A stretch of DNA of 22,580 bases. Source: a virus. The position numbers and the translations under genes are program-made. How positions within the stretch are numbered: position 1 is the stretch's first letter; every line of letters begins with the position of its first letter. A model generated the notes under the pieces. That model did no database searches, was not told the DNA's origin, and saw only the letters and a program-made list of their open reading frames with translations. Below, piece after piece: positions 628 through 15,456 of this stretch. The DNA is taken from positions 1 to 22,580 of IMG/VR virus record IMGVR_UViG_3300042866_000695. One strand, given 5' to 3'.

Positions 628-703
628 CTTAAACAGGTGTTCTAACTCGTATAATGTATATTGTGACCAAGCAAAATGCTAAAGCGGTCACTAACTTAGG
701 CCT

Positions 704-11006: not shown

Positions 11007-11192
11007 GCTGTCCGTGCGATGGGGCGCATAGGGCTGTACTGACTGCTACAATCTTAGGGCCAAACCGTTTCTGTCCCGCCATGGGTGGGGGTTCCGGCCC
11101 GTGGACAGCGGGTTGGTTTGGCGACTCCGGAACCTCCACCCATGGCGCTTTTGAAAGTCGCCAATGTTCAACGCTTCAACCGGAGACCGCAG
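11007..11192 (+). other. Leader of the primase-helicase gene with long hairpin
   Basis: A 186-bp gap. It holds an extended -10 (TGCTACAAT, 11045-11052... promoter G) and a very long inverted repeat: arms 11077-11097 and 11127-11147 pair over 21 bp with one G-T wobble and a 29-nt loop that contains CCCG/CGGG (11098-11101 / 11109-11112). An in-frame ATG at 11142 lies inside the 3' arm. No other gene is seen. Confidence 0.7.
11044..11052 (+). promoter_or_regulatory. Promoter G of the primase-helicase unit
   Basis: CTGCTACAAT contains the extended -10 TGC-TACAAT (hexamer 11047-11052), as in the leftward promoters, but its left half (TACTG) does not match the TAGCA palindrome arm. Transcription would start near 11059, just before the long hairpin. 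Confidence 0.45.
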
Positions 11193-13148
11193 GTGAACGC
11201 GGTCACCACCATCAAGCCCCACCTCTCGAGCATCGTGGCGCCCGATGAGATGCGCAACCTGCCAGCCTGGCTGGTGTGGCGCTTCGAGTACCACGAGGGC
11301 GAGGACAGGCCACGCAAGGTGCCCTACTACACGAACGGGTCCAAGCGCCACGGCGTGCAGGGCCGTCCAGAGGACCGGCAGCAGCTCACCACGTTCGACG
11401 CCGCGCGCACCGCGGCCGCGCGCCGGGGCTTTGACGGTGTCGGGTTCGTCCCGCTGCCCGAGTTCAACATCTGCGCGCTGGACTTCGACCACTGCATCAC
11501 CGGCGGCGACCTGCACCCGGACCTGGTGCCGATCGTCACCAACACCTACGCCGAGTACAGCCCCAGCGGCACCGGCGTGCGCGCCTTCATCAAGGGTCAG
11601 TACGGCAACAGCAAGTACAAGGGCGACCCGTACGGGTTCGAGGTCTTCAGCACCAAGGGGTTCGTGACCTTCACGGGCAACATGCTGCCGGCCAGCGAGA
11701 TGATGGGCAACGCCAACACTGTGGCGGCCGTGGACGAGCCGGTGCGCGAGCTCTGCACGCGCCTCTTCGCCCGGCCTGTGGGCGAGATCAGCGTGAGCGC
11801 TGGCGAGCCGGTGGGCCTCACCGCGGCCCAGCTCGAGGAGCTGCTGGCCAAGCTCGACCCTGGCATGGCCCACGACGAGTGGCTCGCGGTGGGCATGGGA
11901 CTGCACCACGAGACCCGCGGCGAGGGGTTCGACTATTGGTGCGACTGGTCAGAGCAGAGTGACAAGTTCCCAGGGCGCGAGGTGCTGCTGCAGCGCTGGA
12001 CCTCGTTTGGCAAGCACCACGACCGCACCGTCACCATCCGCACCGCGATGAAGATGGCCGGCATGAGCCCCAACACCCCGGCCAGCGCTGAGGAGTTCGA
12101 GGCCCTGCTGGACGACGCGCCGCCCACAGGCGAGGCCCCCCGGTTCAACTTCGAGCCGGTGCACCTGTTCTCCAGCGCCAAGGCGCTGCCGTGGATGATC
12201 AAGGGCGTTTTACCGAAGGCAGCGCTCGGCGTGGTGTACGGTGCCAGCGGCAGTGGCAAGAGCTTCGCGGTGCTGGACATGGGCATGGCGATCGCCCGGG
12301 GCACCGCATGGCGCGGTCGCAAGGTGCGCCAGGGCAGGGTGGCCTACATCGCCGCCGAGGGTGCTGACGGGTTCAGGAAGCGCCTGGCAGCCTACGCGCA
12401 GCACGGGCAGGTGGATCTCACCGGTGTGCCCATGAGCGTGCTCAACGCGGCGCCCAACCTCCTCGAAAAGCAGGACGCGGTCGACATCGCCCGTGGCATC
12501 AAGGCCAGCGGGGGTGCGGATCTGATCGTGGTGGACACGTTCGCCCAGACCACCCCGGGGGCTAACGAGAACGCGGGCGAGGACGTGGGCAAGGCGCTGG
12601 GGTACTGCAAACGCATCCACGAGGCCACAGGCGCCATGGTGCTGCTGATCCACCACAGCGGCAAGGACGCCACCAAGGGGGCCAGGGGCTGGTCAGGCCT
12701 GCGCGCCGCGGCCGACGCTGAGATCGAGGTGGTGCGCGAGGGTGACCAGCGGGCGCTGCGGTTGACCAAAAGCAAGGACGGGGAGGACGGGTTGGAGTGG
12801 GGTTTTGCGCTCGAGGTGGTGCAGATCGGGGTGGATGAGGACATCGAGCCCATCACCAGCTGCGTGGTGGTGGACGCACCAATGCCGGCCGTGGGTGGGG
12901 TCTCGATGCGCAAGCTGGGCCCGGTGGAGACCATCGTGAACGCCGTGATTCAGGAGTTCGCGCTGGCCCAGACCGAGGGCATCGAGGTCACGCCGGTGGT
13001 GCTGGAGGCCATGAAAAGGATGGATCCGCCGGCCGATGGCAAGCGGGATTCACGACGCCAAAGGGTGCGCAGGGCGCTGGATGCACTGTGCATTGGGGAC
13101 AATTCGCCGTACGGGATTGGCGATGATGGTTGCATCTTTGTTTGCTGA
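11193..13148 (+). CDS. Primase-helicase: PrimPol-like N-terminus, PriCT, AAA_25 RecA-like helicase
   Basis: This 651-aa fusion has an N-terminal primase/polymerase-like domain with acidic residues in ALDFDHC (95-101) and the SGTGVRAFIKG block (125-135). A PriCT-type linker domain follows at about 208-272 (DEWLAVGMGLHHETRGEGFDYW). A RecA-like ATPase comes next, with Walker A GASGSGKS (350-357), Walker B LIVVDTFAQ (444-452) and LIHHSGKD (485-492). It primes and unwinds the phage origin. Start: a GTG at 11193 with CGGAG 7 nt upstream is preferred; an in-frame ATG at 11142 would add 17 residues but lies in a hairpin arm with a poor ribosome site. The C-terminal RRQRVRRALDAL may be a winged-helix tail. 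Confidence 0.9.
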   Translation: MNAVTTIKPHLSSIVAPDEMRNLPAWLVWRFEYHEGEDRPRKVPYYTNGSKRHGVQGRPEDRQQLTTFDAARTAAARRGFDGVGFVPLPEFNICALDFDHCITGGDLHPDLVPIVTNTYAEYSPSGTGVRAFIKGQYGNSKYKGDPYGFEVFSTKGFVTFTGNMLPASEMMGNANTVAAVDEPVRELCTRLFARPVGEISVSAGEPVGLTAAQLEELLAKLDPGMAHDEWLAVGMGLHHETRGEGFDYWCDWSEQSDKFPGREVLLQRWTSFGKHHDRTVTIRTAMKMAGMSPNTPASAEEFEALLDDAPPTGEAPRFNFEPVHLFSSAKALPWMIKGVLPKAALGVVYGASGSGKSFAVLDMGMAIARGTAWRGRKVRQGRVAYIAAEGADGFRKRLAAYAQHGQVDLTGVPMSVLNAAPNLLEKQDAVDIARGIKASGGADLIVVDTFAQTTPGANENAGEDVGKALGYCKRIHEATGAMVLLIHHSGKDATKGARGWSGLRAAADAEIEVVREGDQRALRLTKSKDGEDGLEWGFALEVVQIGVDEDIEPITSCVVVDAPMPAVGGVSMRKLGPVETIVNAVIQEFALAQTEGIEVTPVVLEAMKRMDPPADGKRDSRRQRVRRALDALCIGDNSPYGIGDDGCIFVC

Positions 13149-13357
13149 ACGCGCAGTGCTGTGCGGATTCAGAGTGCAACACTGCAACACGACTGCAACG
13201 TTGCACCGTGTTGCACGTTGCACTTACTTCAAAAAGTGCAACGCAACGCAACGCCGCCCTATAGGGGCGTTGCAGTGTTGCACTGAAGTGTCGGTTGTTG
13301 CAGTCGAATGAGCAAAGTTTTACACGCTCCGACTGGTCAGAAAGGAACGCGCAAATC
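13149..13357. repeat. Iteron-like array, candidate replication origin
   Basis: Twelve copies of TGCAAC or its complement GTTGCA (two only as GCAAC) occur between 13174 and 13302, in blocks of three: forward (13174, 13183, 13194), reverse (13200, 13210, 13217), forward (13236, 13243, 13248), reverse (13269, 13277, 13297). GTGCAACACTGCAAC (13174-13188) is repeated exactly inverted at 13269-13283. Inner elements include TGCAACGTTGCA (13194-13205), a 10-bp stem CGTTGCACTT/AAGTGCAACG (13216-13225 / 13234-13243) and CCCTATAGGG (13257-13266). It directly follows the primase-helicase gene. No gene is supported in it. Confidence 0.7.
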
Positions 13358-13594
13358 ATGCAGAAACTGATCGCATTGAACGAAAACGGCCGGCGCATCG
13401 GCGAGCACCACCCGCTGGCCAAGTTGACTGACGCGGAGGTGGGGCAGGTGCAGGCGCTGCTGGACGAGGGGCTGTCCTACGCGGTGGTGGCGGCGAAGTT
13501 CGACGTGAGCAAGTCCTGCATCGCCCACATCGCGGCTGGCCGACGGCGTGGTCAGTCGGTGGCTCGCGTTGTGCGCGTGTCCGTCACTGGTTAG
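13358..13594 (+). CDS. Small HTH DNA-binding protein
   Basis: This 78-aa protein contains a homeodomain-like HTH: LTDAEVGQVQALLDEGLSYAVVAAKFDVSKSCIAHIAAG (about residues 24-62), preceded by NGRRIGEHHPLAKL. Such small HTH proteins are common just before phage terminase genes. AAGGA lies upstream of the ATG at 13358; the frame extends to 13295, into the iteron array, and is not favoured. Its place beside the repeat array makes it a candidate binder of it, or a late-gene regulator; both are inference. Confidence 0.8.
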   Translation: MQKLIALNENGRRIGEHHPLAKLTDAEVGQVQALLDEGLSYAVVAAKFDVSKSCIAHIAAGRRRGQSVARVVRVSVTG

Positions 13595-13608
13595 CACCGC
13601 GCTACATT
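13577..13608 (+). promoter_or_regulatory. Candidate late promoter L1 before terS
   Basis: GTGTCCGT (13577-13584), an 18-bp spacer and TACATT (13603-13608). The same layout recurs at 15458 and 18885. The -10-like hexamer ends 7 nt before the terminase small-subunit ATG, which has no ribosome site. Confidence 0.45.
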
Positions 13609-13615
13609 GCCATGC

Positions 13616-14122
13616 ATGGCCCATCACCCCTTCCCGTGGCGCGACGCATACCTGGCAGCCCTGCGCGAGGTGCCGGTGTTCCAGCACGCATGCAAGGCGG
13701 TGGGCATCGATCGCACCACAGCGTGGCGAGCACGCCAGGACGATCCTGAGTTCGCCCAGGCCGAGGCCGAGGCGCTGGAGGACGGCATCGACCGAGCCGA
13801 GCAGGAGGCCTTCAGGCGGGCCGTGGTGGGCTTTGAAGAGCCGGTGGTGGACAAGGGCCGCCTGGCCTACCGATACGAGCGCTACGAGGACGAGGCGGGC
13901 GCAGAGCAATACCGCATCAAGCTCGACGCCAACGGCCAACCCGTGCCCCTCACGATCCGCAAACACAGCGACGCGCTGCTGGCGCTGTTCCTCAAGGGAC
14001 GGCGCAAGAAGGTCTACGCCGACCGCACCGAGCTCACCGGTGCAGATGGCGGGCCGGTGCAGCAGGCCACAGTCATCATCGCCACAGGTGTGCCGGTCGA
14101 CACGTTCGACGACCTCGCCTAG
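13616..14122 (+). CDS. terS: Terminase small subunit
   Basis: This 168-aa protein has an N-terminal HTH (LAALREVPVFQHACKAVGID, then RTTAWRARQDDPEFAQAEAEALEDGIDRAEQEAFRR) typical of small terminases that recognise the packaging site. It is followed by a beta-rich oligomerisation part and the RKHSDALLALFLKGRRKKVY block found in many phage TerS proteins. Its stop overlaps the terL GTG (TAGTG). ATG 13616 is chosen; a TTG three codons earlier is possible. No Shine-Dalgarno is visible, and a candidate -10 ends 7 nt before the start. Confidence 0.85.
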   Translation: MAHHPFPWRDAYLAALREVPVFQHACKAVGIDRTTAWRARQDDPEFAQAEAEALEDGIDRAEQEAFRRAVVGFEEPVVDKGRLAYRYERYEDEAGAEQYRIKLDANGQPVPLTIRKHSDALLALFLKGRRKKVYADRTELTGADGGPVQQATVIIATGVPVDTFDDLA

Positions 14123-15456
14123 TGCTGCCCCAGACCATCGACCTGGGCTACAGGCCTCGCCAGTGGCAGCGCGAGGTCCACTTGGCCCGCAAGCGCTTCA
14201 CGGTGCTGGCGCTGCACCGGCGGGCCGGCAAGACCGAGCTGGCGCTGTCCGAGCTCATCGACAAGGCGCTGCGCTTCACGCTGCCCTTGGGCCTGTTCTT
14301 CTACGTGGCACCACTGCTCAAGCAGGCTAAGTCCATTGCCTGGCTGCGACTGAAGCAGAAGGTGCAGCCCCTCGTTATGCGTGGCCTGTGCGAGATCAAC
14401 GAGTCCGAGCTGTGGGTGCGCTTCACGACCAACGGCGCGGTGATCCGGTGTTACGGGGCCGACAACCCCGACGCCATGCGTGGCGTGCGACTGGACGGCG
14501 TGGTGATCGACGAGGTGGCCAACGTCAAGCCAGAGACCTGGCTCGAGGTCATCCAGCCCGCCCTGGCCGACCGTTTGGGCTGGGCCCTGATGATCGGCAC
14601 ACCGCACGGCGTGAACCTCTTCAGCGAGCTGTTCTTCAAGGCCCGCACGCTGGATCAGTGGTTCGCAGCGCTGTACACGGTCTATGACACCGACGCGCTG
14701 AACCCGACCGAGGTGGAGCGCTACCGGCAATCCGTGGACGAGAACACGTTCAAGCGCGAGATGCTGTGCGACTTCGCGGCAGCAGGCGACAACCAGCTGA
14801 TCTCACTGAGCGATGTGCAGGCCGCCGCTGGGCGCCACCTGAACCCGCGGGACTACACGTTCGCAGCCAAGGTGCTGGGCGTGGACCCCGCACGTTTTGG
14901 GGACGATCGCAGCGTGATCTTCATGCGCCAGGGGCTGTATGCCTCAAAGCCCGAGGTGTACCGCGGCATCGACAACATGGACCTCGCGGCCAAGGTGGCG
15001 GCGACCATCGAGCGCGAGCGCCCTGACGCGGTGTTCATTGACGCGGGCAACGGGTCTGGCGTGATCGACCGGCTGCGCCAGCTGCACCACGACGTGATCG
15101 AGGTGCACTTCGCAGGCATGCCGAGCGAGGCGCAATACCTCAACAAGCGCGTGGAGATGTGGCACAACATGAAGGAGTGGATCATGTCGGGCGCCGCGAT
15201 CCCCGACATCGTGGACCTGAAGCAGGATCTGGCCGCACCCACCTACAAGTTCACGTCCAGCGACAAGATGCAGCTCGAGAGCAAGGACGACATGAAGGCC
15301 CGAGGCCTGCCGTCGCCCGACCTGGGTGACGCGTTGGCCCTGACCTTTGCCCACCAGGTGTACCGAGACCACAGCGTCGAGGCCCGTGCCCGGGCGCTGG
15401 GCCTGCCGGTCGAGGACAACAGCGCGCTGGAGTACGACCCCTACGCCCGGCGCTGA
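14122..15456 (+). CDS. terL: Terminase large subunit (ATPase-nuclease)
   Basis: This 444-aa packaging motor has Walker A HRRAGKT (32-38), Walker B GVVIDE (126-131), the coupling motif MIGTP (157-161), and a RNase H-like nuclease with D255 (GVDPARFGDD), D307 (VFIDAGNGSG) and D403 (DLGDALALTFA). It translocates DNA into the procapsid and cuts concatemers. GTG 14122 overlaps the terS stop by one base, so the two are coupled. The length is normal. Confidence 0.95.
   Translation: MLPQTIDLGYRPRQWQREVHLARKRFTVLALHRRAGKTELALSELIDKALRFTLPLGLFFYVAPLLKQAKSIAWLRLKQKVQPLVMRGLCEINESELWVRFTTNGAVIRCYGADNPDAMRGVRLDGVVIDEVANVKPETWLEVIQPALADRLGWALMIGTPHGVNLFSELFFKARTLDQWFAALYTVYDTDALNPTEVERYRQSVDENTFKREMLCDFAAAGDNQLISLSDVQAAAGRHLNPRDYTFAAKVLGVDPARFGDDRSVIFMRQGLYASKPEVYRGIDNMDLAAKVAATIERERPDAVFIDAGNGSGVIDRLRQLHHDVIEVHFAGMPSEAQYLNKRVEMWHNMKEWIMSGAAIPDIVDLKQDLAAPTYKFTSSDKMQLESKDDMKARGLPSPDLGDALALTFAHQVYRDHSVEARARALGLPVEDNSALEYDPYARR

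Follow-up and report, generated by a model that had tools for sequence, protein, structure and literature searches.

Replication origins are unknown for most tailed phages that have been seen only in metagenomes. A 22,580-base IMG/VR virus fragment (IMGVR_UViG_3300042866_000695; the whole stretch is hereafter referred to as the window) carries a dense, symmetric cluster of short repeats behind its primase-helicase gene, which raises the question of whether this cluster is an origin and, if so, which protein reads it. The window encodes an SNF2-type helicase, a family A DNA polymerase, an Enc34-type ssDNA-binding protein, a DUF2800/PD-(D/E)XK protein and a repressor-like gene, together with the primase-helicase, a small HTH protein, the terminase small and large subunits (TerS and TerL), a head-tail connector and a major head protein; a search of eight window proteins against NCBIfam named none of them. 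We conclude that the array is very likely the replication origin of a tailed phage, with its 12 iterons as binding sites of the phage's own primase-helicase.

Layout of the repeat array

The array lies in the non-coding gap between the stop codon of the primase-helicase gene (13148) and the start of the small HTH gene (13358), as the preliminary description had placed it, and the primase-helicase gene ends 26 bp upstream of the first repeat. Twelve copies of TGCAAC had been claimed; we found ten exact copies within 13175-13302, and the other two are CGCAAC, with one mismatch each (13242-13247 and 13247-13252, overlapping by one base). GCAAC thus occurs 12 times in total, in the order of three forward, three reverse, three forward and three reverse copies that had been described, with spacings of 8, 11, 5, 10, 7, 21, 5, 5, 21, 8 and 20. 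The repeat search and the spacing table delimit block 1 on the forward strand (13175-13199; TGCAAC at 13175, 13183 and 13194), block 2 on the reverse strand (13200-13222; at 13200, 13210 and 13217), block 3 on the forward strand (13237-13252; TGCAAC at 13237 and the two CGCAAC copies, in 5-bp steps that are kept in most relatives) and block 4 on the reverse strand (13269-13302; at 13269, 13277 and 13297). An A/T-richer spacer, CTTACTTCAAAAAG (13223-13236), separates the two halves, with a distance of about 20 bp between blocks 2 and 3 in most relatives, and a central palindrome, CCCTATAGGG, is located at 13257-13266. The inverted repeat reported as 15 bp (13174-13188 / 13269-13283) is present and perfect, but its arms measure 16 nt (13173-13188 / 13269-13284).

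TGCAAC occurs 19 times in the whole 22.6-kb window against 14.9 expected (about 0.085 per 128 bp), and arithmetic from this whole-window expectation gives a Poisson chance of roughly 1e-17 for ten copies in 128 bp. Runs of three TGCAAC with gaps of at most 12 bp were found twice in the record, both times inside the array. Clustered short repeats at one non-coding site beside a candidate initiator gene, as expected of an iteron origin, are found here with 12 copies. An Rfam search with the array gave no match, direct similarity searches of the array DNA against annotated phages returned chance matches only, and the GC skew of the window, a check proposed in the preliminary description, gave no clear origin signal.

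An A/T-cored inverted repeat of the type GTGCAAAnTTTTGCAC was also observed on both sides of the array (13147-13170 and, as GAGCAAAGTTTTACACGCTC, 13310-13329). Elements of this type, independent of the iteron word, flank the arrays of relatives as well (L010, L024, L032, L038 and L120); among 101 loci they were present upstream in 26 (0.2 expected) and downstream in 18 (1.1 expected). The first search patterns for this flanking palindrome gave 0 matches in the window.

The primase-helicase and its C-terminal domain

The gene upstream of the array (11085-13148, forward strand) encodes a protein with a PrimPol-like N-terminus, PriCT_2, a RepA-type AAA_25 helicase and a predicted C-terminal winged helix, which we propose as the origin-binding initiator. 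Pfam detected AAA_25 (4.6e-37) and PriCT_2 (4.6e-15) only, and no SF3/D5-type helicase domain. In a PDB search with a profile of 15 relatives, the N-terminus matched NrS-1-type primases (6a9w and relatives) and the helicase region matched RSF1010 RepA (1g8y_A, E = 1.5e-7, profile positions 352-505); together with AAA_25, the latter match identifies a RepA-type hexameric helicase. The true start of the protein is probably GTG 11196 rather than the GTG at 11085 that opens the reading frame, as relatives in the alignment start at a matching M(N/S/T)AVT.

An AlphaFold2 model of residues 592-687, built with 92 homologues (mean pLDDT 88; about 92-98 for 612-687), predicted an H-H-H-E-E winged helix at residues 612-687 (12918-13145, forward strand), with helices at 613-626, 635-644 and 657-669 followed by two strands; much of the full-length model had low confidence. 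In winged-helix folds, the third helix is the recognition helix. A second look with VIA returned generic winged helices, e.g., Fur, MecI and linker histone H1 (Z 6.4-8.3), matches that support the predicted fold and name no relative. Foldseek of the domain against the PDB gave no match below E 0.001, and no sequence relation to solved structures was found. As a working analogy, the protein has a C-terminal winged helix of the SaPI/PICI/P4-alpha type, given this model and the residues within it that track the repeat word.

Covariation of the repeat word with the recognition helix

Searching viral contigs and bacterial genomes at the protein level yielded about 320 loci, many of them overlapping, including 147 distinct loci with a complete C-terminus and downstream DNA. 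Nearly all are metagenome contigs and partly near-duplicates; identical loci were removed and independent pairs were used. The nearest relatives in the phage collection showed 43% identity. In most loci the array lies directly downstream of the primase-helicase, usually starting 25-60 bp past the stop codon, and in some, additional sequence separates the two by a few hundred bp. The preliminary description had named absence of the array from close relatives with the same replication genes as evidence against it; we found the array in nearly all of them, so the sequence half of that test was passed. The blocks keep their order and spacings (about 8, 11, 5, 10, 8, 20, 5, 5, 21 and 8), and the central CCC-TATA/TTTA-GGG palindrome (variants TATA, TTTA and TAAG) is likewise retained, even where the word shares nothing with TGCAAC. 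All copies of one array, forward and reverse, have one common word that changes in concert; the words include TGCAAC, TGCACC, TTCACC, TGTTTC, TGTCCC, TGCCCC, TGCCAC, TGGCAC, CCGCAC, CCGAAC, TGCTAC, TGCACT and TGCAAT, and further ACCCTTCA, CCCGACTT, CCCTGAAAC, GTACTCAC, ACCCTGAAAC, CCCTACTT and ACCCTTGA. No array was found in a distant clade with a related helicase (e.g., L298-L321) or in Caulobacter phages with a related helicase (L102), nor downstream in Caulobacter phage GB2A.

Several observations concern the surroundings of these arrays. A perfect DnaA box (TGTGGATAA) borders an iteron block in one clade only (L011, L014, L017, L020, L051 and L053; 6 of 79 loci), and DnaA boxes were therefore rejected as a general feature of the array. 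Arrays of CATCCAACCT, TTGCTCA, GAACGAA, ACGGACA and CTGAACG were seen in or near the distant relatives L060, L055, L200, L201 and L202, a set that includes actinobacterial and rhizobial contigs. In L034 (1435-1855), an array with the word CCGACA lies beside HTH-terS-terL with no primase-helicase relative detected upstream, and a different initiator may be using the same layout there. The TerS proteins of L026, L030, L033, L034 and L010 match that of the window only over the last ~30 residues (139-171), and the HTH protein and TerL (14122-15456, forward strand; phrog_2, 2.5e-50) stay alike, which suggests swaps of the TerS N-terminal part.

We found that the repeat word varies with the C-terminal ~75 residues of the primase-helicase. 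His660 was present in 25 of 26 TGCACC loci and in none of the 53 TGCAAC loci (79 loci; Fisher's test, 1e-19), the exception being L185, which combines Arg660 with TGCACC. Kinship was controlled for with a tree built from primase-helicase residues up to 595 only, on which the word must have changed 13 times, at least 10 of them on well supported branches; in 10 independent pairs, His followed the word in nine, did not differ in one and opposed it in none (p = 0.004). A scan of 1,489 column/residue tests ranked residue 660 first (2.9e-18), with the next column at 1.6e-7. The residue-word rule, fixed beforehand, was obeyed by 12 of 12 distinct loci retrieved later. Words had been assigned by searching 700 bp downstream, and a targeted look revealed arrays beyond that distance in L146, L177, L282 and L288, all of which agree with the rule for residue 660. 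Close pairs show the same switch: Arg to His with TGCAAC to TGCACC (L045/L048, 98% identical outside the tail), His to Arg with TGCACC to TGCAAC (L014/L015, 95%), and a helix start changing from TRAQH to NRATM with TGCACT to TGCAAT (L282/L288, 98%).

With all words included and the rest of the protein controlled for (partial Mantel test, 91 loci), residues 653-664 gave r = 0.58 (0 of 1000 permutations) and the overlapping window 645-656 gave 0.44; windows without a common residue remained below 0.19. Per-residue partial correlations were highest at 656 (0.53), 659 (0.51), 660 (0.44) and 654 (0.41), and place the word-tracking stretch at residues 654-660 (R D S R R Q R; 13044-13064, forward strand), i.e., in the AlphaFold2 model, the turn before the third helix (657-669) and its first turn. 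For residues 659, 656 and 654 a finer code was read by eye (15-20 odd loci). We hypothesize from these loci that residue 659 pairs with base 4, 656 with base 3 and 654 with bases 1-2, such that Gln, Met, Ile or Leu659 would go with A4, Glu, Asp, Tyr or Phe659 with C4, and Asp654 with CC at bases 1-2; residue 659 is only partly predictive, as the base paired with Thr, Ala or Ser differs from one context to another. There is, in our judgement, an even chance that this amounts to a modular origin-recognition code, in which individual bases of a 6-bp iteron are specified by a handful of positions (654, 656, 659 and 660) where the recognition helix of one winged-helix domain begins (e.g., His660 with C5; Arg, Lys, Met or Leu660 with A5; Tyr or Asn660 with T5; Glu, Asp, Tyr or Phe659 with C4). 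Under such a code, every change of the helix would be accompanied by a rewriting of all 9-12 iterons, which for a single base would have happened on at least 10 independent occasions, as though selection favoured incompatibility among related phages. In the open-access literature, we found no paper on covariation of iterons with a recognition helix or on iterons beside phage replicative helicases.

The array as a candidate origin

The suggestion of an origin with iterons is well supported, as the word covaries with the winged-helix domain of the primase-helicase. Two other roles had been raised for the site, packaging recognition near terS and binding by the small HTH protein, and neither gained support because neither protein tracks the word. 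For TerS (13607-14122, forward strand; phrog_4044, 1.4e-25), the column scan, an indirect line of evidence, reached no better than p = 8e-4. A pac or cos site bound by TerS would suit the position of the array ~300 bp before terS, but TerS N-terminal parts differ even among TGCAAC loci (that of L026 aligns with the window protein at 139-171 only); we regard this reading as highly improbable. For the HTH protein (HTH_38 by Pfam; 13358-13594, forward strand), the best column gave p = 8e-5, with 3 of 8 pairs. Its gene follows the array in nearly all relatives, a point in favour of binding as a late-gene regulator; however, L015 and L011 have the same HTH recognition helix with different words, and L006 and the window have different HTH recognition helices with the same word, so we give regulation by this protein very little credence.

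It is also unlikely that the array is a regulatory operator through which the primase-helicase shuts off or times its own operon and the HTH-terS transcript, with replication starting elsewhere. Binding by the same domain would yield the same covariation, and the array does lie between two genes on one strand; yet twelve sites, two inverted halves and a central palindrome exceed the needs of simple repression, and sites of this kind are the origins, or putative origins, of the related initiators SaPI Rep and Cch2 (PMC7581432, PMC6092414). Initiator binding at the array could additionally serve autoregulation. A role as a folded RNA or as a DNA hairpin or cruciform, rather than as duplex repeats read by a protein, would draw on the strong folding of the single strand (far better than shuffles, z = -7.5) and on the origin of plasmid pRN1, described as a stem-loop that follows the gene of a winged-helix primase-helicase (PMC4234260). 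The array folds strongly because its iterons are inverted, however, and the direct copies within each block also change together, which pairing alone does not require; with the covariation left unexplained and no Rfam family matched, we regard this reading as barely credible.

We therefore return to an origin read by its own initiator, for which a fused PrimPol / RepA-type helicase / winged-helix protein is the best reading. From the covariation, we strongly infer that the primase-helicase tail recognizes the array in a sequence-specific manner. Replication from this site we infer by analogy, because SaPI Rep, Cch2 and the PICIs show the same arrangement, in which the sites that a replication protein reads with its DNA-binding domain are clustered immediately behind its gene. 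In the proposed mechanism, the C-terminal winged helix (612-687) would place its recognition helix (657-669) on each TGCAAC, with residues 654-660 setting the word, and each of the two inverted halves would accommodate one initiator assembly, the two facing in opposite directions. This would bring the ring of the RepA-type helicase, and with it the fused PrimPol, to the array; the duplex would open, perhaps at the spacer (13223-13236) or the central palindrome, and both forks would be primed, after which extension would fall to the phage's family A polymerase and SSB. Sequence alone thus suffices here to propose an origin, the protein that reads it and the residues involved. The natural word switches offer matched protein-DNA pairs for testing how an initiator and a dozen sites change jointly, and for asking whether origin words decide the compatibility of coinfecting phages.

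By mechanism, the system resembles the SaPI/PICI Rep-ori, P4 alpha and pRN1 systems; it is not a member of any of them, because it has a RepA-type helicase and no detected SF3 domain. The C-terminal domain of SaPI Rep and of Cch2 binds iterons just downstream of its own gene (PMC7581432), and PICI origins consist of initiator-bound short iterons directly downstream of their own gene, in two sets, sometimes with terS further on (PMC7581432, PMC6092414). The window shares with these elements and with SCCmec Cch2 a helicase initiator, a C-terminal DNA-binding domain and iterons directly downstream of the gene, whereas SaPI/PICI helicases are SF3/D5-like (PMC7581432) and the window protein has a RepA-type helicase (AAA_25) joined in one chain with PrimPol and PriCT_2. 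Unlike SaPIs and PICIs, the window belongs to a phage that encodes a family A polymerase of its own. The alpha protein of satellite phage P4 likewise combines primase, helicase and a C-terminal origin-binding domain in one polypeptide and uses short iterons (ori/crr), but its primase is of the bacterial (Toprim) type and its helicase belongs to SF3, neither of which was found in the window protein. A comparison with P4 has been made for pRN1, whose ORF904 has its origin directly downstream of the gene, with a sequence that diverges and a form that is kept (PMC4234260). ORF904 is, like the window protein, a primase-helicase with a C-terminal winged helix; the pRN1 origin differs in being described as a stem-loop without iterons, on an archaeal plasmid with an SF3 helicase. 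The NrS-1 phage primase-polymerase resembles the window protein in its N-terminal PrimPol (6a9w and relatives). The RSF1010 oriV with RepA, RepB' and RepC has the same ingredients, namely a RepA-type helicase, an AEP-type primase and iterons, but splits them over three proteins, with RepC reading the iterons (PMC4234260). No separate RepC-type iteron-binding protein was recognized in the window, where the word tracks the primase-helicase and not the neighbouring HTH protein. All three parts are carried by the window protein, and one protein with three RSF1010-type functions would be a compact initiator for study.
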